Shown: positions 48,369 through 61,721 of the stretch, piece by piece | Numbering within the stretch: position 1 is the stretch's first letter | Layout of the letters: each line of letters opens with the position of its first letter | NCBI GenBank assembly: GCA_947260005.1 | Contig: CAMYOL010000037.1 | Location: 1 to 64,000, forward strand | Direction of reading: 5' to 3' | DNA from: an uncultured Ectothiorhodospiraceae bacterium | GTDB lineage: Bacteria; Pseudomonadota; Gammaproteobacteria; UBA6429; Thiohalophilaceae | DNA: 64,000 nucleotides | Notes under the pieces: generated by a model | Databases searched by the model: none | What the model was told of the DNA's origin: nothing | What the model saw: only the letters and a program-made list of their open reading frames with translations | Made by a program: the position numbers and the translations under genes

Positions 48369-48457
48369 GGAGAAGTGTCCGAGTGGTTGAAGGAGCACGC
48401 CTGGAAAGTGTGTATACGTTCTGCGTATCGAGGGTTCGAATCCCTCCTTCTCCGCCA
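48369..48457 (+). tRNA. tRNA-Ser (GGA), CCA encoded
   Basis: ggagaagtgtccgagtggttgaaggagcacgcctggaaagtgtg...gggttcgaatccctccttctccgcca; acceptor, long variable arm and T-arm recognisable. Confidence 0.96.
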
Positions 48458-48527
48458 AATAACGAAGCGATACAAAGGCAGTGCCTGCCCGAACCGCGAT
48501 AGCGGTTCAAAACAAGGCGATTAGGAA

Positions 48528-48546
48528 TAATCCCTCCTTCTCCACC
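48528..48546. repeat. Partial duplicate of the tRNA-Ser 3' end (att-like direct repeat)
   Basis: aatccctccttctccacca repeats aatccctccttctccgcca of the tRNA (15-nt perfect core). Confidence 0.75.
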
Positions 48547-49644
48547 ATATATTAAATATATTAAATATATTTCATGTATAAGTAACATCCCCTCAAGATC
48601 AAACATTTGGATGATAATGTGCTAGAAAGAATAAACAATATGATTAAATCCGATTATAAGATCATTCTGGGAGATGCAAATTTTGTTTACCGTGCGATCT
48701 AGAAATACATTCAATCCAAGCAGTATGTAAATGTAAAAGTATACTGCTCCGGCAATCGACCAAGAAACAAAGTCGGTCACTGGCCCGTTGAAAACGTTAC
48801 GACAACAACGGCCGCTGGCTCGCAAGCCTTTTGACCCGCCAAGGATGTCATAATGGCAGAAGACTGTGACTATGGTTTAATGGTCTGAGATTCTCAAAGT
48901 AGCGGAACATTGAGTAACGTCATCGAACTTTTAAAAAGAGAATATGTTCCGTTAAATTAATCTAAATTTATTCTCTTTGATGAAGTGGCTCATTGACATG
49001 TTTGGGCTAATTTCGGTTAACAAAGTAAGATGTAGACACGGAAATAATTGCTCTGATTTTCAGGAGTTAGTGGCGACTGAAAACGGTTGTGAATTGATTT
49101 GCCCGTCACGTATTATTCAAATAAATTGAGGCTATCTGTTCGCCTAACGATATTGAAATGGTTTGTTGAATTCCTGCAATATTATTATTGTTTTGGTTGT
49201 CGTTATGTTAATGATGTCATATTTTGTGACGTACATCAGAGATCATTTGCACCAATATTTTGTACACCCAATAAACTTATCAATGTGTTAGAGGAGGCAG
49301 TGGTGATAAGTATTTGATTTTTGTTTACTGGCAACAGAGGTGGTATTTATGAAATTTTTAATGCATCACATAAATATGACGTAAATCACGTATGTATCGA
49401 TTATAATATGAGCATTCAATGCCTGCTAGGTAAGTGTCGCTGATGCATAAGAGTTTACAATCAATTTTTGATACTTTAGCATGTGCTCTACCCCCAGTAT
49501 GATTTAGTACCTAACATTGGTAATGTTGAAACGATAATAGCAATTTTATCGATAAGGAAGTTAATACAACAGGGAGTGTTCCGTGATTTTATACTTAATA
49601 TCAACCATCCATCTTAAAGGCTTTAGAGAAAGCAGGTGACTTAT

Positions 49645-50643
49645 ATGTTGCGTCCTGTTTTTCTTACCGTGCTTATTATATTAGTTGTATCTAGCATTGC
49701 GCGTGCGGTGTCGATTTCTATGCACGACAAAGCGCAGACTTTTGCCACTTGGGATAGCCTGGAGCCTGATAAGTGGTCATCCATTTGGTTGATAAAAAAA
49801 CATATTGATTCTAACGTGAATATTGAAGTTCGTCCGACAGGTACGCCGTTGGATGGTTATATGACGTTTGGTGTACCACAGGCAAAATACAGGCGTTCAG
49901 GTAATCGTTCCACGTTTGAGGCATTGTTAAAAGGATATCAACAAACTGATCCAATTTTACTTCGTATGGGAAAGTTGATTACGCAAATTGAAACGACATC
50001 GTGGAATACGGCGAATGACCCTTTTGCATACACAATAGAACAAAACTTTCGTTATTTACAAGATCGCTTTAATCGGTTTGATGTGCCGGTAAACTGTTAT
50101 GCGCACTTTTTTGATGTGTTATATGTCGGATTACAAGATGCTTTGTCATCCGATGAGCTGAATCAAATGCTAGTCATAGCAAGCAGAAATGAGAGTTGTG
50201 CAAACGGCGTGGTGATTGCACAACGACGGCCGGGTGATAGAGTCAAAGAGTTACCTATTGAGCATCTGTTGTCAGAAATTGCACAAGGTAAGAAAGTAGT
50301 ATTTGTCGATACTCGTGAGCCCACTGAATATGCAAAATCTCATATTCCTGGGGCTATTAATATTCCCATGCGTAATTTAAACGATGAGGTCTACTCAAAA
50401 CTAAAACAAGCCGATCGAGTGATTAGCTATTGTGTGAAGGATTTTCGTGGTTACGAAGTCGCTCGAAAAATGCTTGAAAATGGTGTCAACAGGGTTGCTG
50501 TGATGCAACCCCATGGGTTATCGGGGTGGCGGTCTGTAGGCTTACCACTGTCCTCACCAGAAAACACCGCTAATAACATTGTGAAGGAACAACTCTATCG
50601 TTGTGCTAAGGAACAGCAGACATGTTTGAAGTCAACGTCATAA
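49645..50643 (+). CDS. Exported protein: ChrB C-terminal-like domain fused to a rhodanese domain
   Basis: Signal peptide; SSIWLIKKHIDSNVNIEV..FGVPQAKYRRSGNRSTFEALLKGYQQTDPILLRMGKLI (chromate-resistance ChrB-C-like); FVDTREPTEYAKSHIPGAINIPM...VISYCVKDFRGYEVARKM (rhodanese, catalytic Cys). Confidence 0.75.
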   Translation: MLRPVFLTVLIILVVSSIARAVSISMHDKAQTFATWDSLEPDKWSSIWLIKKHIDSNVNIEVRPTGTPLDGYMTFGVPQAKYRRSGNRSTFEALLKGYQQTDPILLRMGKLITQIETTSWNTANDPFAYTIEQNFRYLQDRFNRFDVPVNCYAHFFDVLYVGLQDALSSDELNQMLVIASRNESCANGVVIAQRRPGDRVKELPIEHLLSEIAQGKKVVFVDTREPTEYAKSHIPGAINIPMRNLNDEVYSKLKQADRVISYCVKDFRGYEVARKMLENGVNRVAVMQPHGLSGWRSVGLPLSSPENTANNIVKEQLYRCAKEQQTCLKSTS

Positions 50644-51299
50644 AGCCGGCTCAATCACTTCAACTAGTGCAGGCCTTGCGTTCACTGGTTTGGTGTGCTG
50701 TTTTATTGGCACCGTTAGGTTTATGGCTGCTCACAACCAATATATACAGTTATGTCCAGTATGGTGCCCCGACCGGGCAGATCTGGTATGTCTTTTCCAA
50801 ACTCTTTGGATTATACGCAGGTTTATTCCTGAGTTATCAGGTGGTCTCGACCTGTTTAAAGAACACAAAGTATAGTGTTGCTCTGCCAAATTGGAGTCTG
50901 TTTCGCCATCAATACATAGGTGCAAGCCTCTTTTTTGTGACAAGCTTTCATATCGCTTTTTTCGTGACCGCCGTATCACTACGAAAAGACACCTTTGCCT
51001 GGGCGCTATTGCTGCCGGATTTCAAGGATTTTTATCATACCTCGATCACCATTGGTTTGTTCGCATTTATGTTGGCTATATTGGCGGTATTGGCCGCGTT
51101 GTTGCGTACTCACCTGCCGCAAGTTTGGCGCTACTTGCATCGGGCTATGTTTTTAGTTGTGTTAATGGGATTGGTTCATGGCTATTTGATTGGCACTGAA
51201 TCACGCTATGGATTGTATGAGCTGTTTTATTTGTCCCTGGTCTTATCGGCCTGCGTGGCGCTACTGTTAAGGTGGCGCGAAGCCAGGAGGCGTAGCTAA
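50622..51299 (+). CDS. Ferric-reductase-like/YedZ-like heme-binding membrane protein
   Basis: About six TMs; paired His: RHQYIGASLFFVTSFH and LHRAMFLVVLMGLVH; overlaps the previous gene. Confidence 0.7.
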   Translation: MFEVNVIKPAQSLQLVQALRSLVWCAVLLAPLGLWLLTTNIYSYVQYGAPTGQIWYVFSKLFGLYAGLFLSYQVVSTCLKNTKYSVALPNWSLFRHQYIGASLFFVTSFHIAFFVTAVSLRKDTFAWALLLPDFKDFYHTSITIGLFAFMLAILAVLAALLRTHLPQVWRYLHRAMFLVVLMGLVHGYLIGTESRYGLYELFYLSLVLSACVALLLRWREARRRS

Positions 51300-51300
51300 T

Positions 51301-52200
51301 ATGAGAGTGGCCTTCGCGATTATGTCGTTTATCATTTGTATCATTAGTACATCGGTACATGCGGTATGCCAGACCTGGCCAAAAGGCATGGTCTTTGTCG
51401 GTTTGACTGACGCTGGATGGAATACCTATGTGGTAACCAAAAGCAGTAGTCCACCTGTTAAAGTCAATTTAAACACCGAAGCACGTACGCCCGTATTTTC
51501 TGCTACGCAGAAGTCGCTTATTTACATTGATGAAGCCGGCCAGCTCAGTCGTTATTCTTTAGCAACACAAAAAACGGTAGTATTGTTGAAGCCTTCTGCT
51601 GAGGCTAGTTATGCACAACCCGAGTTTGATGAAGCTAATAACAGTGTGTATGTGGTTGAACTCAAGCAAGGAAAAAGCGTCGACACCGATATTATTAAGC
51701 TGGTTTTGACCCTATCCAAGTCGAAGCCAAAACATGGGCCTGTTATTATTCAACGGTCAGCTCAATTTGAACCTCATCATACAAATGATTGGCTTTATTA
51801 CAGTAACGTTCATTGCGTCGTTGGTTGTGGCAAGATCATTCAGGAAATCTGGCGTTATCACATCACCAGCGGTTTGGCCGAGCAAGTCACGTTGTTAAAC
51901 TCGATCAGTCGCCAGCCCAGTACGGATCAACAGCATAACTGGCTTTATTTTAGCAGTAATGCAGCGGGGCATTATCACATCTATCGCCAGGCGCTTAACG
52001 ACAAAAACACGACAACAATTGAACAACTTACCCAGGGGACGGTTACTGATATGTCTCCGGTGATGTATCAAGGGCAACTTTTCTTTATTCGCCAAAGCGC
52101 GCAACAGGCACAGTTAATGTGCCGAGATAATTCGGGTCAGGTACATGCGATGACATTACCAACCGGCATTAAAGATTTACGGGATTTGGAGATTAATTAA
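51301..52200 (+). CDS. Exported TolB/WD40-like beta-propeller protein
   Basis: Signal peptide; repeats such as ARTPVFSATQKSLIYIDEAGQLSRYSL, SRQPSTDQQHNWLYFSSNAAGHYHIYRQAL. Confidence 0.6.
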   Translation: MRVAFAIMSFIICIISTSVHAVCQTWPKGMVFVGLTDAGWNTYVVTKSSSPPVKVNLNTEARTPVFSATQKSLIYIDEAGQLSRYSLATQKTVVLLKPSAEASYAQPEFDEANNSVYVVELKQGKSVDTDIIKLVLTLSKSKPKHGPVIIQRSAQFEPHHTNDWLYYSNVHCVVGCGKIIQEIWRYHITSGLAEQVTLLNSISRQPSTDQQHNWLYFSSNAAGHYHIYRQALNDKNTTTIEQLTQGTVTDMSPVMYQGQLFFIRQSAQQAQLMCRDNSGQVHAMTLPTGIKDLRDLEIN

Positions 52201-53297
52201 TGCGGTATTGGATAACGATTCTAACCCTATTGCTGAGTGTGAGCACACTATGCCAGGCCTCAGTCAGTATTAAAGAATTCAAACATCAGGAGTTTAACCC
52301 CTCTGCCGGTAAGCGGTTTGCGATCCCGGTTAAGATAGGCAAGCCAGGCTCAATTAAAGTCGTTATCTATAGCTCGGATGGCGACGTTGTGCGTACCTTA
52401 TCGTCCAGTTACAAAGCAAAAGCCGGTACCTACACACTAAGCTGGGATGGTAAAGACGAAGATAAAACGATCGTACCGAATGAGGCTTATATTCCAGTCG
52501 CTAAACTCTATAGTGGAAAAAAGGATAAGCCCAACTTTGTATACGACTCGCGTAATACCAGTGGTGGTAAAGAGATTAAGATTAATCCTAACTTGAACAC
52601 ACAAGGTCATATTGACTTTACGCTCAAACGTCCTTCGCGCATTTTGGCCCGAGCCGGGATTAAGTCTGGCCCAATGATGAAGACCATTTTGGATTGGCAG
52701 GTTCGCGGCAGCGGGCGCAACCGGCTTGCATGGGATGGTTATGATCAGGATAAGATGGTTAACCTCGCACAGCATAAACGACTGGCTTTATTAGTCACCG
52801 GGTTTGAGTTACCGGACCATGCCATCATAACCAACGGCAACAAATCATTAAGTTATACCGTCTGGCGGAAAACCAAAAAATGGCCGTCAGTGATGCCGGA
52901 TTTTAAAAAGAAACCATTAGAACGCAATGGGCAGCGTATTTCCCGACATTATTACTTACCACGCTCGGTAGATATCGAACCGCGCGTCAGCTTGGCTTTG
53001 GGTGAAAAACTGCCGTTAAATCCTGACGGACTGCCTATCGTGACCAAACCGATATCATTAAAGGTGGATATGCACAAAGATGATCGTTGGGCCATGAAGC
53101 AAAGTCTGTATGAGGTGGCGTTTTTTCTGGATTACGAATTTATATCTGAGGAAGAGCAAGGTTATGTGCCTTTGACCTGGCGTTGGAATCCTGCCGGGTT
53201 GAAACCAGGCATACACGTGATCAGCGTCAATGTGTCTGGCTTTAATGGGCAAGTTGGGGTGAAAAGCGTCACGATTTTTGTGCCTAAACAGCTTTAG
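52200..53297 (+). CDS. Exported protein with FlgD-Ig-like domains
   Basis: Signal peptide; GSIKVVIYSSDGDVVRTLSSSYKAKAGTYTLSWDGKDEDKTIVPNEAYIPVAKL. Confidence 0.65.
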   Translation: MRYWITILTLLLSVSTLCQASVSIKEFKHQEFNPSAGKRFAIPVKIGKPGSIKVVIYSSDGDVVRTLSSSYKAKAGTYTLSWDGKDEDKTIVPNEAYIPVAKLYSGKKDKPNFVYDSRNTSGGKEIKINPNLNTQGHIDFTLKRPSRILARAGIKSGPMMKTILDWQVRGSGRNRLAWDGYDQDKMVNLAQHKRLALLVTGFELPDHAIITNGNKSLSYTVWRKTKKWPSVMPDFKKKPLERNGQRISRHYYLPRSVDIEPRVSLALGEKLPLNPDGLPIVTKPISLKVDMHKDDRWAMKQSLYEVAFFLDYEFISEEEQGYVPLTWRWNPAGLKPGIHVISVNVSGFNGQVGVKSVTIFVPKQL

Positions 53298-53404
53298 TTA
53301 TTTTAATGTTAGCAAAGAGCAATGATACGAATATAACAGTGAGGATGAAACGCATGAATGGACAGAGCAGGTATCACTTCTTTCAAATATTGACGTTATT
53401 ACCA

Positions 53405-56005
53405 ATGAAATCATTTCTCACTGGCATCATGGCATTGATGCTGTTTTTATCTTCGCCAGTAGTGCATGCTAACTGGTGGAACCCGGTATTTAACATCACC
53501 ATAGAAACTTCGACCAATGGTGAGGATGCGGATGAACCGACCGGACCTGAGATCTTTCTTGGCTTTCCGGTGGTCTGGACCTACACGGTGACCAATACGG
53601 GTATCGCGACCTTGCATGACATCGTGGTCTATGATGGAGAACTGCTAGAACACTCACACGATGATGACGACTCCAAAGAAAGAAACCATGAAGGCTCATC
53701 TGATGGCTCGCATAAAAAGCCACACATACATGGCAACATAGTTTGTAAGATAGAAAAATTAAAACGCAATGAAAGTCGTACTTGTACATTAGAAGGTACA
53801 GCCGTTTTAGGTCAATATCAAACAACCGGCACCGCCGTGGTACGTGGCGATAATTGGTGGAAACGTGTTCGCGATGAAGATAAGAGCCACTATATCGGGA
53901 CATTAGGCAATCCATCTATTGATTTAGAAAAATCAACTCAAGGCCAAGATGCCGATATCGCCCCAGGTCCTGAGATCCCGGTCGGTGATTCGGTAGAATG
54001 GACCTTTGCAGTTACTAATACAGGCGATGTTGACTTAACCAACGTGGTCGTCACGGACGAACAGGTTCAACCCTCACCAACTGCGGCGACCACAGTTTGT
54101 CAGATTCCTCTGTTATCCATAGGACAGTCGCAAAACTGTACGGTAACCGGCACTGCGATTGAAGGGCAATACCAGAACCTGGGTATAGTCAATGCACAAG
54201 GTTTGGGTGATAGTGTTGTGACCGATCAAGATGCCAGTCATTATACTGGTGATGCAGCAAATGGATTAGCTTCATTACCAGCAGCAGTACCAAGCAGTGG
54301 TGATGCACCATTAGCCGTTACCTTTACACCTAATTCGACGACACAGAATGCGATCATTCGATATGAATGGGATTTCGAAGGCGATGGCACCTATGATCGC
54401 AGTGAAACGGTTGGACGTGATCAATCGTTTACTTACAATACTCCAGGTAGCTACAACGCCACACTACGCGTAACAGAAAATACCGGTGAACAAGCCACCG
54501 GTACCGTATTAATCACCGTTAACAACCAACCACCGGTGGTCAGCGCAAATGCCTCTCCATCAAACGGTCAGATACCATTAACGGTCACTTTCTCAGCTAC
54601 AGCGACGGACAGTGATGGCATTGCCCAATTTGAATGGGACTATGATGGCGATGGCACGTTCGATGAAACCACGCCAACAGGTACGGCATCAAATATTTAT
54701 CAGACAGAAGGCTCATTCCAGGCGAATGTGCGTGTAACCGATACACTGGGTGCGGCCACGACTCTCGCGATTCCCACACTCGAAGTCAATGCACTTCCCG
54801 TTGGCAGTCCTTCGGTTTCACTGGCGGTATCCGCTACCACCGGTAATGCACCGTTAAATGTCACGTTAACCGCAACGGCAACCGATCCGGATAACGGAAC
54901 AATCGATCAGTATGAATGGGATCTGGACGGCGACGGTACCTATGACCAGACTACCACGGTTGCTTCGTTGTCACATAGCTATACCGCCGTAGGTACCTTT
55001 TATCCGCGAGTCCGTGTTACTGATTCAGCTGGACAAACGGCGGTCGACGCCAACAAGGTGTTTGTTGTGCCTCAGGTATCATTAAACAGAGATCTGGATA
55101 CTATTGATCCTCTTAATGGTGAGACCACAACAATTTCTACCACATTAGGTGGTGATACGGAAGTGAGTGTCATTATAGAGGGGCGTAGCGGTGAGCTGAT
55201 TCGTACCTTAGTACCTTTTACCATGCGTGTCGCAGGTAACTATGATGATGTGTGGGATGGCAACAACGATGCCGCCAGTGTTGTGACTGAAGGCGATTAC
55301 CGGGCAATCTTACTGTATCGCGTCGATGGTGTGGTTAATCGATTGGATCTGGCGCTAACCACAGGTGGGCAGCAAAGTAATCCGCCGCGTAGTCGCATAC
55401 CTTCTAGTTTTTCACCACTAGCCGGTGATCCGCTGGATATCACATTCACTTTAAATCAAGCCTCCGAGGTAACGGCATTTATGGGTTTGTTCAGAGTGAA
55501 TACGCGTCTGGTGACGTTCATGCAACGACTACCATTGGGCCGGGGTACTCATCTAATCACCTGGAACGGTGAAAATTCCGATGGGCAATTAATTGAACCG
55601 CCACCGGGTGATCAGTTCTTGTTTGGTATATTCGCGTATACCTTGCCAGATAATGCGATTTATGTGCGCAGCGGGGTACACGTCAGTTCGGTTAGTGCCA
55701 TACCATCGGTATTCCAACCGACTCAAATTAATCCTGATGGCACACCCGCACTCAGCCAGATCCAGTTAGATCTGAACCGTGCCGGTGATGTCAAACTCGT
55801 CATCAATGATACCGTAACTGGCGCCTCAGTCGCCGAGTTTATCCATACTAATATCGTGGCGGGTACAAATACCATCACCTGGGATGGAAGGGATAACAAC
55901 GGTAACTTTGTCGCCCCCGGGACCTATCGATTAGGCGTCGCTGGTGTTGATGAGACTGGCTATCAATCTATAACCGTGTATGTCTTACAACGGATCTTTT
56001 ACTAA
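53405..56005 (+). CDS. Large exported DUF11-like / PKD / FlgD-Ig multidomain surface protein
   Basis: Signal peptide MKSFLTGIMALMLFLSSPVVHA; two DUF11-like repeats (VEWTFAVTNTGDVDLTNVVVTDE), three PKD-like repeats (YEWDFEGDGTYD, FEWDYDGDGTFD, YEWDLDGDGTYD), C-terminal ITWDGRDNNGNFVAPGTYRLGV. Confidence 0.85.
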   Translation: MKSFLTGIMALMLFLSSPVVHANWWNPVFNITIETSTNGEDADEPTGPEIFLGFPVVWTYTVTNTGIATLHDIVVYDGELLEHSHDDDDSKERNHEGSSDGSHKKPHIHGNIVCKIEKLKRNESRTCTLEGTAVLGQYQTTGTAVVRGDNWWKRVRDEDKSHYIGTLGNPSIDLEKSTQGQDADIAPGPEIPVGDSVEWTFAVTNTGDVDLTNVVVTDEQVQPSPTAATTVCQIPLLSIGQSQNCTVTGTAIEGQYQNLGIVNAQGLGDSVVTDQDASHYTGDAANGLASLPAAVPSSGDAPLAVTFTPNSTTQNAIIRYEWDFEGDGTYDRSETVGRDQSFTYNTPGSYNATLRVTENTGEQATGTVLITVNNQPPVVSANASPSNGQIPLTVTFSATATDSDGIAQFEWDYDGDGTFDETTPTGTASNIYQTEGSFQANVRVTDTLGAATTLAIPTLEVNALPVGSPSVSLAVSATTGNAPLNVTLTATATDPDNGTIDQYEWDLDGDGTYDQTTTVASLSHSYTAVGTFYPRVRVTDSAGQTAVDANKVFVVPQVSLNRDLDTIDPLNGETTTISTTLGGDTEVSVIIEGRSGELIRTLVPFTMRVAGNYDDVWDGNNDAASVVTEGDYRAILLYRVDGVVNRLDLALTTGGQQSNPPRSRIPSSFSPLAGDPLDITFTLNQASEVTAFMGLFRVNTRLVTFMQRLPLGRGTHLITWNGENSDGQLIEPPPGDQFLFGIFAYTLPDNAIYVRSGVHVSSVSAIPSVFQPTQINPDGTPALSQIQLDLNRAGDVKLVINDTVTGASVAEFIHTNIVAGTNTITWDGRDNNGNFVAPGTYRLGVAGVDETGYQSITVYVLQRIFY

Positions 56006-56016
56006 GGAGAATTATC

Positions 56017-56427
56017 ATGATGAGCAAATTATTTTATAAGGTAGTTAATGTACTCTCTTTAGTAACCATGCTGGCCCTATCATCGAATAGCATGGCACTG
56101 GATTTGAGTGCACAAGACTACATTACCATGGACCTACAGGTACGTCAGGCGACACTCGATGGCGTGCAGGCAAGAGCCCAGCTAATGGAACAAGGTGGTG
56201 ATCTGGATGCCCAGTTCGCCTTGGATACCCAAATACAACAAACCGTTACAAACATTTATTCAAACTGGGGCATGACCTCTGCTCAGGCGGTAGTCTGGGC
56301 GACTCACCATTTTGAAGAAGTTCAGACATTGCTCACCACTCAACCTTCGTTACAGGCTGAGTACGACCGCATATCACGTGAACTTGATGAAGCATCTGCA
56401 TTAATCCAGGCAATGGCAAACAGGTAA
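56017..56427 (+). CDS. Small exported hypothetical protein, 136 aa
   Basis: Signal peptide (LSLVTMLALSSNSMA), helical mature region; sits between the PKD and RHS genes. Confidence 0.65.
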   Translation: MMSKLFYKVVNVLSLVTMLALSSNSMALDLSAQDYITMDLQVRQATLDGVQARAQLMEQGGDLDAQFALDTQIQQTVTNIYSNWGMTSAQAVVWATHHFEEVQTLLTTQPSLQAEYDRISRELDEASALIQAMANR

Positions 56428-56442
56428 TCAGGGAGATAGACC

Positions 56443-59400
56443 ATGCAATTACATTCTGTTTTATTCAATAAAATTGTGACCGCACTACGGATTAGCATCG
56501 TAGCATTGCTCGTTGCCTTTGCCAGTTCTTTGGCTATAAGCCCGGCGTATGCTTTTCATTTTCCCTGGGACCAGGGACATGACACGACCGACCCAAATGA
56601 TGCCGATGATCCGGGTACCTGTGAAGAAGGAGACTGTGATAACGATCCTTGTAATAAAGGTAGTAAGGGTTCACCAGTCAATTTGGCCACAGGCTATTTT
56701 GTCTGGAGCGAAACCGATATCGTTTTAAAAGGTCGTCCAAGGCTAGCCGTAACTCGAACTTTCAACTCACACGATCCACGTGTTGGATTGGTGGGCAATG
56801 GTTGGAGCATGAGCTGCGATCGTGGTCTGATATTTACTAGTCGATTCATCACAAATCAAGTGGGCGATTCTGAACTCGTGCGTGAGTTTGTGCGTCGATT
56901 ACCGAATGGCAAGCGGTATATTTACTCAGAACGACCAGATGGTAAGTTTGCAGCACCTGGCCTATTTGATGTGATTGAACGCCTGCCGGATAATATGGCC
57001 AGGTTGGAAAGAAGAAATGGTAGTTACAGTATTTATGGAGAAACAGGTGAATTATTAGCCACAGGTGATCGTAATAGTAATATTGTTAATTACATTTATG
57101 ACACTCAGGGACGCTTGATTCAAAAAGCCGATACTAATGGACGTTCGCTGACTTATGAATACAACGCCAATGGTCTAGTTTCTATAATCCGAGATCACAC
57201 CGGACGTGAATGGTTATATGGTTATGACGCTGATGCGAATCTGACCTTGGTGACCGATCCACTGAATGGAGCACGTACGTATGGTTATGAAACCTATCAA
57301 GCACCTAGTGACGGTCAGTCCTATACCCACCTAAATCGTATTACGGATGAAACAGGTGTAGTGGAAACCGACGTAACCTATAGTGGTGCGCGAGTTTCTT
57401 CCTACACTGACTTGGCCAACACCTATAGCTATCAATATGACAAAGCCAACCGTAGGGCTACTAAGACTGATAGCATGGGCAGCCAATGGGTCTATACGTA
57501 TAATACAACGGGGCAATTTACTCGTATTGATGCACCACTTGGACGAACATTCCAGTATGAGCGTGATGCCGATAGTTTGATAACAACTTATACCGATCCG
57601 AGTGGTACTGCATATTCCTATACATATGATGCCTTTGGTAATCGATTGTCTCAATCGGATAGTCGAGGTACGATTACTATTACCTACGATAACGAGAAGC
57701 CGTGGCCATTAACGATTAATTCACGTTCCGGTAGAGTGACCACGCTGACCTACAATGCACAAGGTAATCCACTAACAGTTACTGACTCTGACGGAAATAT
57801 ATCCAATTTATCCTGGTCACCACAGGGGGATTTATTACAGATTACAAATGCCCTAAATAATCAGACGACAAACACTTACAATATCCAAGGAATGCCACTA
57901 ACAGTAACCGACCCACTGGGTCGAGCCACACAATACCAATACGATAGTCTGAATAATCTAGTTAGCATGACTAATCCGGTTGGAGAGGTGATGCAATATC
58001 AATACGATGCCCTGGATAGAGTGATATCGTATACCGATGGAAATGGTGATACGACGAGTTACAGTTATGATGCAGCGGATCGTATTACGCAAGTGAACGC
58101 TCCGAATAATCAAACGGCTCAGTATACTTATGATAACTTTGGACGTTTGAGTCAGCGTACGTTTTACGATGGTACAAACCATACATATCAATTTCGAATT
58201 GACAATCTTGTTTCACAAATGACACGCCCTGATAACGTTGTTTCCTCAATGGTGTATGATGATGCTAAACGCCTGATACAGCGTACCATTGGAACGGAAG
58301 ACACGTATCAATATGCATATAACTTGCGTGATCAACTAACAACGGCATCAAATATTACTGGAACAGTGACGTTTGCTTATGATGCATTTGGACGCAAGAC
58401 CAACGAAACCGTCAATGGCCAGGCAACAACATATCAATACAACACCGAAGATGAGATTGAGCAACTGACCAGTATGGGCTTGTTACAGACACAACAGTTC
58501 GATGTCAGAGGTTTGTTAAGTCAGCTGGATATATCTGGTAGTAGCTATCAATATAGCTATGATGCAATAACACGCCTAACGTCTATTAATCGCACTAATG
58601 CGATTAATACAACCATGCAATACGATGAGGCCGATCAATTATTACAGATTAGCCATGCAGCGGGACTTCGTAGCTATCAGTATCAATATGATCTAGCCAG
58701 TCGTGTTAATCAATGGCAAGGCGTGGCAAATGAAACCCGAAGCTATAATTACGATCCAGCTAGTCGTTTGACAAATGTTCAATCTATTATAAATCCTGAA
58801 TCGTTCAATTACGATTCTATAGGTAATCGGCTAAATAATAATGCACAATATGATAATGCAAACCGTATTATCGAAGATGATAATTTCATTTACAGTTACG
58901 ACGTAAACGGCAATCAGACTCAGAAACTGAATAAGTCTACAGGAGTTGTCGAGCAATATAGCTACAATAGTCTGGATCAGCTGGTTCAATATCAGTTTTT
59001 TTCAGATAGTAATCCGGCTACGTCTGCTACAGTCGATTTTAGTTACACATATGGACCATTTGGGCGGCGTTGGGCTAAACAGGATAATCTGGGTGGTGGT
59101 AGTCGGCAGTTTTATTGGTCTGATACAAGTATGATAGGTGAATTATCAGGTAGCATACAACGGCGTTACATCATGGAGGGTAAAACACCGATAGGGTTTG
59201 TTGAAAATGGTCAGGTTTATCATTACTTTAAAGACCATTTGGGTGCTGCTCACGAGGCGTCTGACAGTAATGGGACGGTCGTTTGGCGGGGGAGTTATGA
59301 TAGTTTTGGAAAAGTGACGGAAACCATTACAACGGCAGATAATTACCTGCGTTTTCCTGGTCAGTATCATGATGAGGAAAGTGGGTTATATTATAACTAC

Positions 59401-59916
59401 TTTAGGTTCTACGATCCGAGTACAGGTAGATACATCACCTCCGACCCTATTGGTATAATAGGCTTATTAAACGGTGCTGCCGATAGGATTGCGATGAATC
59501 CAACAATTCCTCCGAACTTTACTGCGTTGCAAGGTGGGTTGCCTTATCAAACTATCTCACGCAGTAAACCATTAAACACATATACATATGCTGCTAATAG
59601 TCCATTGCTTAATTCCGATCCACTTGGGTTAGATGCGGCGGCTACTTTAGGGAGAGGTTTGGCTATATGGGGTGGTGCCTCAGTATCAGATGGTCCTTTT
59701 CCTGCAGGTGAGATTGTTGGCGGTGTTATCTTCATTGGTTTTGCAGGTGTTGCTCTATATGAATATTGTACTGATGATGAGGAAGCAGAGGACAAGAATT
59801 GCGAAGCGTTATATCAGAGCATCTTGGCAACATGTGCCGGTTTAACTGGTAAAAAGAAATTTAGGTGTTTTGAAGCAGCCAGGATTGCAAGAGATCAGTG
59901 TTACCAAGAGAGATAA
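56443..59916 (+). CDS. RHS/YD-repeat protein with Sec-type signal peptide and Cys-rich C-terminal tip
   Basis: N-terminal PVNLATGYFVWSETDIVLKGRPRLAVTRTFNSHD (DUF6531-like), many YD repeats, core motifs YDPSTGRYITSDPIG and YTYAANSPLLNSDPLGLD, then a variable tip. Confidence 0.92.
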   Translation: MQLHSVLFNKIVTALRISIVALLVAFASSLAISPAYAFHFPWDQGHDTTDPNDADDPGTCEEGDCDNDPCNKGSKGSPVNLATGYFVWSETDIVLKGRPRLAVTRTFNSHDPRVGLVGNGWSMSCDRGLIFTSRFITNQVGDSELVREFVRRLPNGKRYIYSERPDGKFAAPGLFDVIERLPDNMARLERRNGSYSIYGETGELLATGDRNSNIVNYIYDTQGRLIQKADTNGRSLTYEYNANGLVSIIRDHTGREWLYGYDADANLTLVTDPLNGARTYGYETYQAPSDGQSYTHLNRITDETGVVETDVTYSGARVSSYTDLANTYSYQYDKANRRATKTDSMGSQWVYTYNTTGQFTRIDAPLGRTFQYERDADSLITTYTDPSGTAYSYTYDAFGNRLSQSDSRGTITITYDNEKPWPLTINSRSGRVTTLTYNAQGNPLTVTDSDGNISNLSWSPQGDLLQITNALNNQTTNTYNIQGMPLTVTDPLGRATQYQYDSLNNLVSMTNPVGEVMQYQYDALDRVISYTDGNGDTTSYSYDAADRITQVNAPNNQTAQYTYDNFGRLSQRTFYDGTNHTYQFRIDNLVSQMTRPDNVVSSMVYDDAKRLIQRTIGTEDTYQYAYNLRDQLTTASNITGTVTFAYDAFGRKTNETVNGQATTYQYNTEDEIEQLTSMGLLQTQQFDVRGLLSQLDISGSSYQYSYDAITRLTSINRTNAINTTMQYDEADQLLQISHAAGLRSYQYQYDLASRVNQWQGVANETRSYNYDPASRLTNVQSIINPESFNYDSIGNRLNNNAQYDNANRIIEDDNFIYSYDVNGNQTQKLNKSTGVVEQYSYNSLDQLVQYQFFSDSNPATSATVDFSYTYGPFGRRWAKQDNLGGGSRQFYWSDTSMIGELSGSIQRRYIMEGKTPIGFVENGQVYHYFKDHLGAAHEASDSNGTVVWRGSYDSFGKVTETITTADNYLRFPGQYHDEESGLYYNYFRFYDPSTGRYITSDPIGIIGLLNGAADRIAMNPTIPPNFTALQGGLPYQTISRSKPLNTYTYAANSPLLNSDPLGLDAAATLGRGLAIWGGASVSDGPFPAGEIVGGVIFIGFAGVALYEYCTDDEEAEDKNCEALYQSILATCAGLTGKKKFRCFEAARIARDQCYQER

Positions 59917-59940
59917 TAAATATTCTAAGGATGCACATTA

Positions 59941-60246
59941 GTGAAATACATAGCCGAGAGAAAATTACTTTTTAAAGAGAAAAACACTCAAACTACTAAA
60001 GAAATGGTGATTAAGATAAGTGAACCATATATTGTAACTGAAAATGACGTGAAATTTCCGGTTGATGGGGTTATTGCTGGATGTCATGTGAAAATTGAAG
60101 GGTTGGATGAGCCTGGATATGATTTGTATGGGATGGACTCTCTTCAGGCGGTGAATTTAGCTTCAGATATAGATCCACTGTTAGATAGATTAAGTGGAAA
60201 CTATGATTTTTTTTGGAGCACTGGAGAGCCTTATTTCGAAGAATAG
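59941..60246 (+). CDS. Small RHS-tip-associated ORF, 101 aa (possible immunity-like; DUF6968-like?)
   Basis: ERKLLFKEKN...VIAGCHVKIEGLDEPGYDLYGMDSLQAVNLASDIDPLLDRLSG; 24 bp after the RHS gene. Confidence 0.6.
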   Translation: MKYIAERKLLFKEKNTQTTKEMVIKISEPYIVTENDVKFPVDGVIAGCHVKIEGLDEPGYDLYGMDSLQAVNLASDIDPLLDRLSGNYDFFWSTGEPYFEE

Positions 60247-61008: not shown

Positions 61009-61721
61009 ATGGAAAGCAACCAGATTATTCTTGATGAACTTCATCACATCCCCTTATTTGAGGCGTTGGAACAGCCGCACCCGGAAAGCCATTGCTCGCG
61101 ATCATTTATACGCATTGGCACATCGATCATTCATCAGGAGCAAAGATATTAAAGCAACAATTCGGCGATGATATACCCATCATTGCGCATGAACGAACTT
61201 TGAGTCGATTAAAACGCTGGGGTGATCCTGAAGTACTATTACCGACCAAAACGATCGATGATGACGGTGTTATTCTACGCTATGGCGATATGAACATTGA
61301 GCTAAATTATATTGGCTACGGTCACACGAATACGATGCTGGTGCCCCGTTTCCCAAAGCAAAAGTTAGTATTTGCCGTTGATTTTGCCAACAATGATGCG
61401 GTTGGATGGAGAGATTTACCCGGTTGGTACTTAGGTGAATTAATCGCGATGCAGGGACGTTTAAATAAACTGGACTTTGATATTGTCGCGTTCGGACATG
61501 GCATGCCTGGAGATAAAGACACGATAAGACGTCAGATAAAATACTACACGGATTTGACTACGCAGGCCAAGCGTGCTTTACAGCAGGGACTGTCCGAGGA
61601 TGAGGCGGTTAAAGTGATTGAGAAAAATCTATCGCAATACAAGCAGTGGCGTTTTTATGATAAGTGGTTTTTGATGAATATACGAGGAGCCTATCGCTGG
61701 GCTAAAGAGAATAATACCTAG
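61009..61721 (+). pseudogene. N-terminally truncated MBL-fold hydrolase joined out of frame to a possible Crp/Fnr N-terminal remnant
   Basis: 61009 frame: MESNQIILDELHHIPLFEALEQPHPESHCSR...; 61092 frame: LAIIYTHWHIDHSSGAKIL...GYGHTNTMLVPRFPKQKLVFAVDFANND...AFGHGMPGDKD, beginning just before the HxHxDH motif. Confidence 0.6.

Follow-up and report, generated by a model that had tools for sequence, protein, structure and literature searches.

A candidate Sec-exported RHS polymorphic-toxin locus with a constant set of redox and scaffold-type genes in Gammaproteobacteria

Signal-peptide-bearing RHS proteins of Gram-negative bacteria are classed as Sec-dependent, with neither signature partners nor a known route across the outer membrane. 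Does such a protein ever come with partners of its own? The question is raised by a locus at positions 49636-60246 of a 64,000-nucleotide stretch of DNA from an uncultured Ectothiorhodospiraceae bacterium (contig CAMYOL010000037.1 of assembly GCA_947260005.1; the whole stretch is called the window here), in which eight genes, g1 to g8, lie on one strand and the RHS gene, g7, is preceded by genes for a rhodanese, a heme-type membrane protein, a propeller, two proteins with Ig-like, PKD or FlgD-Ig modules and a small helical protein. An earlier note made from the letters of the window had joined the eight into an operon-like unit, combining a redox module with a large surface RHS/PKD assembly. 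This gene combination is more than a product of chance, its order being kept in many distant genomes. We interpret it, with a probability of roughly 55% and from comparison of sequences, as a Sec-exported RHS polymorphic-toxin locus that has its own constant set of accessory, redox and scaffold proteins, with g8 as a putative immunity gene. Such a locus would connect antagonism between bacteria with a sulfur/heme redox step in the periplasm, for which no earlier proposal was met in the literature searched (most subscription journals lay outside it); nothing found there joined RHS proteins with rhodanese and FlgD or PKD domains. A constant partner set tied to a tip-swapping RHS protein would, moreover, make the export question testable gene by gene.

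A constant gene set and a variable end

The genes g1 to g7 occur in identical order and on the same strand in 12 gammaproteobacterial genomes including that of the window, with Photobacterium, Saccharospirillum, Halovibrio, Candidatus Endobugula sertula, the Ectothiorhodospiraceae bin and a Thiotrichales bin among the carriers. Complete sets were identified by profile annotation in the window and in loci L025, L026, L027, L028, L029, L032, L033, L039, L041 and L042, to which L056 is added; L034-L038 are fragments consistent with the cassette. The same gene order is found on a Photobacterium megaplasmid. A search of 115 relatives yielded a single full-length homologue of g1, and behind it lie g2, g3, g4, g5, g6 and an RHS gene, again in this order. 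The window proteins share about 27-70% identity with their homologues, g6 excepted, so that the gene order has outlasted much divergence. A scan for g4 with one genome per species returned 18 loci, nearly all of them labelled gammaproteobacterial. In 369 sampled gammaproteobacterial genomes, strong matches to g1 and g2 were found in the same five, which belong to five families; the two genes are adjacent in each of the five, g4 is also present in each, and an RHS gene in four, the fifth genome being fragmented. Of 349 genomes sampled across the phylum, those with g2 all belonged to Gammaproteobacteria. The locus is sporadic and probably laterally acquired, since g1 gave no significant match in the three same-genus genomes sampled. 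A rearranged form exists in the complete genome G119, where g1 and g2 are followed by a 1775-amino-acid IPT/FlgD-Ig protein, g3, g4, a TPR protein and RHS; the incomplete loci of G224 and G518 fit this arrangement. The link between redox genes and PKD/RHS genes put forward in the earlier note thus stands in a set of seven genes, and the co-occurrence search that it proposed found the redox pair adjacent in all five sampled genomes with strong matches, not an arrangement peculiar to the window.

What changes from locus to locus is the end of the RHS protein and the gene behind it. Three Photobacterium cassettes have RHS cores that are 92-95% identical and tips that are only 28-49% identical, and in two Saccharospirillum cassettes the core is 84% identical versus 38% for the tip. 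The gene 3' of RHS is a different one in every lineage, and five loci of relatives have displaced orphan RHS fragments downstream; the 64,000-nucleotide window contains no orphan RHS tip. One orphan tip, in L042, matches EndoU nuclease (1e-13), the main tip of L039 is Ntox37-like (8e-5, below cut-off), and partner genes in relatives include RraB-type and DUF2247-type proteins. Rhs toxins are known for having orphan tips and immunity genes paired with them (PMC3150448, PMC3482391). By position, the window tip may be a toxin and g8 its immunity protein. The earlier note was right about the RHS family and missed its tip-swapping, polymorphic-toxin type; its eight-gene unit holds for the constant g1-g7, whereas g8, variable and a putative immunity gene, falls outside the constant set.

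In its signal peptide, RHS repeats, variable C-terminal tip, variable downstream gene and orphan tips, the locus resembles the Sec-dependent RHS polymorphic toxins surveyed by Zhang et al. 2012 (PMC3482391). That survey gives the Sec class no signature neighbour genes and mentions neither rhodanese, PKD nor FlgD. Unlike the class as surveyed, the RHS gene described here is preceded by six conserved accessory genes.

Predicted roles of the redox, scaffold-type and RHS proteins

The domain families named in the earlier note were recovered with Pfam and NCBIfam, although the Ferric_reduct match of g2 is below the cut-off (2e-4). In g1, ChrB_C (6e-18) and rhodanese (4e-14) domains follow a signal-like N-terminus. 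Past its first 25 residues the protein has exactly five cysteines, all invariant in 11 of 11 ChrB_C-type g1 proteins: the cysteine of the rhodanese catalytic loop (YCxKDFRG) and four more. The active-site loop is thus kept as expected of a rhodanese sulfurtransferase, which g1 is predicted to be. It shares the ChrB C-terminal domain with the chromate-resistance regulator ChrB; a role as such a regulator or in chromate resistance was considered and rejected, as g1 is predicted to be exported, is fused to rhodanese and lacks the DNA-binding part, and the cassette gave no chromate-transporter match. The neighbouring g2 has six to seven hydrophobic segments, no FAD/NAD domain and two histidine pairs (H96/H110 and H173/H186) that are invariant in 14 of 14 sequences and spaced as for two b hemes, suggesting heme binding. 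The invariant cysteines and histidines make g1-g2 look like a functional redox module, and a periplasmic electron path of the MsrPQ type is a reasonable inference by analogy. Like MsrPQ, the pair would combine a ferric-reductase-like heme membrane protein with an exported redox enzyme, a likeness of working principle; unlike in MsrPQ, the partner of g2 is a rhodanese and not a molybdoenzyme, and none of the eight proteins matched MsrP. NCBIfam gave g2 only 12 bits for MsrQ, whose cut-off is 130, and an assignment of g2 as MsrQ itself was rejected.

The propeller of g3, which also has a signal-like N-terminus, is matched weakly by the single sequence, and the family profile matches TolB structures at 6e-8. 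A CxxxC motif (C172, C176) is kept in 13 of 13 sequences. The likeness to TolB lies in the propeller, and no match to the TolB N-terminal domain was obtained. For g4, Pfam identified FlgD_ig (2e-8), and the C-terminal motif EEQGYVPxTW is conserved. Its AlphaFold2 model is all-beta, with a predicted local distance difference test score (pLDDT) of 89, and its Foldseek matches were modules from adhesins and from complement, of the Ig, Fn3 and macroglobulin types. DUF7507/DUF11, three PKD domains and FlgD_ig make up g5. Both g4 and g5 share the FlgD-Ig domain with the flagellar hook cap protein FlgD, unlike which they lack the FlgD N-terminal part. The fast-changing protein of the cassette is g6, which is present in all complete loci and has a confident helical model (pLDDT 88); it has no Pfam family, and the model found no structural match in the PDB. 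In two relatives the gene models of this region are irregular: g5 of Photobacterium sp. GJ3 is divided into two ORFs (open reading frames) in different frames (L025 10225-12653), and in Cand. Endobugula sertula g4 and g5 stand 1 kb apart (L028 11080-12098).

The RHS protein g7 combines RHS repeats (PF05593, 1e-67), Rhs_assc_core (2e-17) and DUF6531 according to Pfam and NCBIfam. Its N-terminal region consists of a Sec-type signal-like stretch recognised by hydropathy, an A(F/Y)xxPW motif and a cluster of three cysteines ahead of DUF6531, and its tip in the window has a hydrophobic stretch followed by a cysteine-rich end. Where a type A locus has a full-length g1, three cysteines between signal and DUF6531 are also the rule; g7 of L028, whose N-terminus is disrupted, has two, and that of Photobacterium, where g1 has no ChrB_C, has one. 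The start of the RHS gene of Cand. Endobugula sertula appears to be split over two frames (L028 15426-15722). RHS repeats around a variable C-terminal toxin, and the involvement of a propeller, recall the Tc toxin complexes (TcB-TcC), from which the locus differs in that the eight proteins contain no SpvB, TcdB-type or TcA domains and the TolB-like propeller is a separate protein.

We propose the following hypothetical scheme, in which (i) the RHS repeats of g7 would form a shell enclosing the swappable C-terminal tip, and g7 would be exported by Sec and not on the spike of a type VI secretion system (T6SS); (ii) the strings of Ig, PKD and FlgD-Ig modules in g4 and g5, together with the g3 propeller, would provide a scaffold, in the periplasm or at the surface, to hold and present g7, as their anatomy and position suggest; (iii) g6, encoded directly before the RHS gene, could serve as a small periplasmic chaperone or adaptor of g7; (iv) g1, as an exported rhodanese with four further cysteines, and g2, as a conduit for electrons of the two-heme type, would constitute an MsrPQ-like periplasmic thiol/persulfide redox pair; (v) this pair would maintain or process the cysteines of exported partners, the candidates being the CxxxC of g3 and the N-terminal cluster of g7; and (vi) g8 would guard the producer cell.

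Alternative readings and the export route

Several observations weigh against a toxin locus of this kind. Signal peptides were assigned from hydropathy and AxA-like sites alone. The window tip has no family match and g8 only a weak one to DUF6968 (Pfam, 1.6e-3, below cut-off), neither has relatives in 143 genomes or plasmids, and most tips of relatives likewise lack a recognised toxin domain. No outer-membrane exporter can be recognised among the cassette genes. Accessory genes also occur apart from the others: L031 has g4 without the rest, L030 and L048 have g3-g4, no RHS gene is visible in these three, and in L030 (216-3641) and L048 (408-4779) g3-g4 adjoin genes of an ATP-binding cassette (ABC) importer. 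Finally, the covariation of g1 cysteines with the N-terminal cysteines of g7 comes from a single lineage and is contradicted by G119, for which reason we retain it only as a lead.

A part of these points would suit a surface adhesion or matrix structure that is not a weapon and whose tip recombines for kin recognition or receptor choice. PKD, FlgD-Ig and Ig modules are characteristic of surface adhesins, to whose Ig modules the g4 model bears a resemblance, and a toxin match is missing for most tips, that of the window included. However, EndoU and Ntox37-type tips, RraB and DUF2247 partners and orphan tips fit an exchange of toxins and immunity proteins, and we regard a purely adhesive function as unlikely. 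No better placed is the idea that two units merely share a transcript, g1-g4 being an envelope redox/stress or metal-related unit that travels with an RHS toxin unit, g5-g8. The g3-g4 pairs beside importer genes and the solitary g4 speak for it, as does L040 with g4-g1-g2 at a contig edge; in L048 a ChrB_C-type domain occurs with rhodanese absent. From the g3/g4-only and partial loci it follows that the accessory genes occur more widely than RHS does. Yet no sampled genome has g1 or g2 without g4, RHS accompanies the pair in all but the fragmented one of the five genomes with strong matches, and G119, though rearranged, still has all functions in one locus, which makes this division improbable as well. 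Delivery of g7 by a T6SS with incidental neighbours is very improbable: RHS effectors of Gram-negative bacteria are often T6SS cargo, and the window's genome has a T6SS sheath gene at another place, but the N-terminus of g7 is of Sec type, g7 gave no Pfam match to PAAR or VgrG, and the sheath protein VipA was undetected in four carriers (G119, Saccharospirillum impatiens, the Thiotrichales bin and G391, the last two incomplete).

The T6SS is not required for the cassette, because VipA was undetected in these four of 11 cassette genomes, one of which, G119, is complete. The locus shares an RHS shell, a variable tip and a small nearby accessory gene with T6SS Rhs effectors such as the Serratia Rhs protein with EagR (PMC4524185), from which it differs in the Sec-type signal of g7, in the missing PAAR/VgrG N-terminus and in the carriers with no T6SS detected; unlike EagR, g6 is predicted to be exported, and it matches no EagR model. 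For the type II secretion system, considered as the export route, a secretin occurs in 11 of 11 cassette genomes versus 64 of 94 genomes of the class, which has no bearing either way. A bolder version of the Sec-exported toxin locus would make it a new secretion or presentation system, namely an export and display machine for Gram-negative RHS toxins that is independent of the T6SS and the type V secretion system, with an Ig/FlgD-Ig/PKD surface scaffold and a membrane-linked rhodanese-heme thiol/persulfide step needed for assembly. We put this forward as a tentative idea that may well prove wrong.

Boundaries and surroundings of the locus

The coordinates of the cassette are collected in Table 1.

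Table 1. Features of the locus in the window, with predicted nature and the evidence used
Feature	Position	Strand	Predicted nature	Evidence
g1	49645..50643	+	Exported ChrB_C and rhodanese protein	Pfam; alignment of 11 sequences
g2	50622..51299	+	Ferric-reductase-like membrane protein	Pfam below cut-off; alignment of 14 sequences
g3	51301..52200	+	Exported TolB-like propeller with CxxxC	Profile against TolB structures; alignment of 13 sequences
g4	52200..53297	+	Exported; built of Ig-like modules, FlgD-Ig among them	Pfam, AlphaFold2, Foldseek
g5	53306..56005	+	Exported DUF7507/DUF11 protein with three PKD and FlgD-Ig	Pfam; three-lineage alignment
g6	56017..56427	+	Small exported helical protein directly 5' of RHS	No family; helical model
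g7 constant part	56443..59628	+	N-terminus to RHS core ending at DPLG	Pfam/NCBIfam; comparison of N-termini
g7 variable tip	59629..59916	+	Putative toxin, about 95 amino acids	Tips vary between loci, cores agree
g8	59941..60246	+	Variable partner of 101 amino acids, putative immunity protein	Weak DUF6968; variable position

All eight plus-strand ORFs are present in the ORF list of the window over 49636-60246, and their close packing agrees with the earlier description, with overlaps of at most 22 base pairs (bp) and gaps of at most 24 bp. The overlaps are at g1/g2 (22 bp) and g3/g4 (1 bp), and the gaps at g2/g3 (1 bp), g4/g5 (8 bp), g5/g6 (11 bp), g6/g7 (15 bp) and g7/g8 (24 bp). Signal-like N-termini had been assigned to the exported products, in agreement with hydropathy and AxA-like sites. 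For g1 the ORF given earlier is right, and its start moves from GTG 49636 to ATG 49645, which homologues favour; the start of g5 is likely near 53354, as the L026 homologue suggests.

In a consensus scan against shuffled sequences, sigma70-like sites were not enriched (29 seen, 35 expected), and terminator-like sites were mildly so (17 versus 10 expected), most of these lying within genes or on the minus strand. A search with Rfam returned a tRNA-Ser (about 48369-48457) as the sole RNA element and no known RNA element controlling the cassette; the interval of about 1 kb between this tRNA-Ser and g1 has no clear gene. A degenerate copy of the tRNA-Ser 3' end, ATCCCTCCTTCTCCACC, is found near 48530 (window 48369-48550), with none downstream of the cassette. 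The locus was considered as a tRNA-Ser island with attachment (att) repeats, and this was rejected: the window has no second exact copy of at least 14 bases of the tRNA 3' end, and no tRNA was found in any of the 14 further loci scanned. The guanine-plus-cytosine content of the cassette (44.5%) is like that of the window (42.9%), which also weighs against an island. Behind the cassette, a metallo-beta-lactamase-like ORF runs from a TTG start (61010-61721); its 5' end is possibly truncated, with coding-like sequence in another frame just upstream.

In G119 (L044/L045) an integrase-like gene lies near the locus (L045 12067-13347) and flagellar genes lie at its other side, and on the Photobacterium megaplasmid several transposase genes adjoin an orphan RHS fragment (L025 1109-4307). 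The genome of the window carries three more RHS genes, at about 8956-16395 of contig C56, 3390-6770 of C10 and 171890-173875 of C7, with open frames of 3178, 3299 and 1470 amino acids; the C56 frame also holds a PKD-like stretch.

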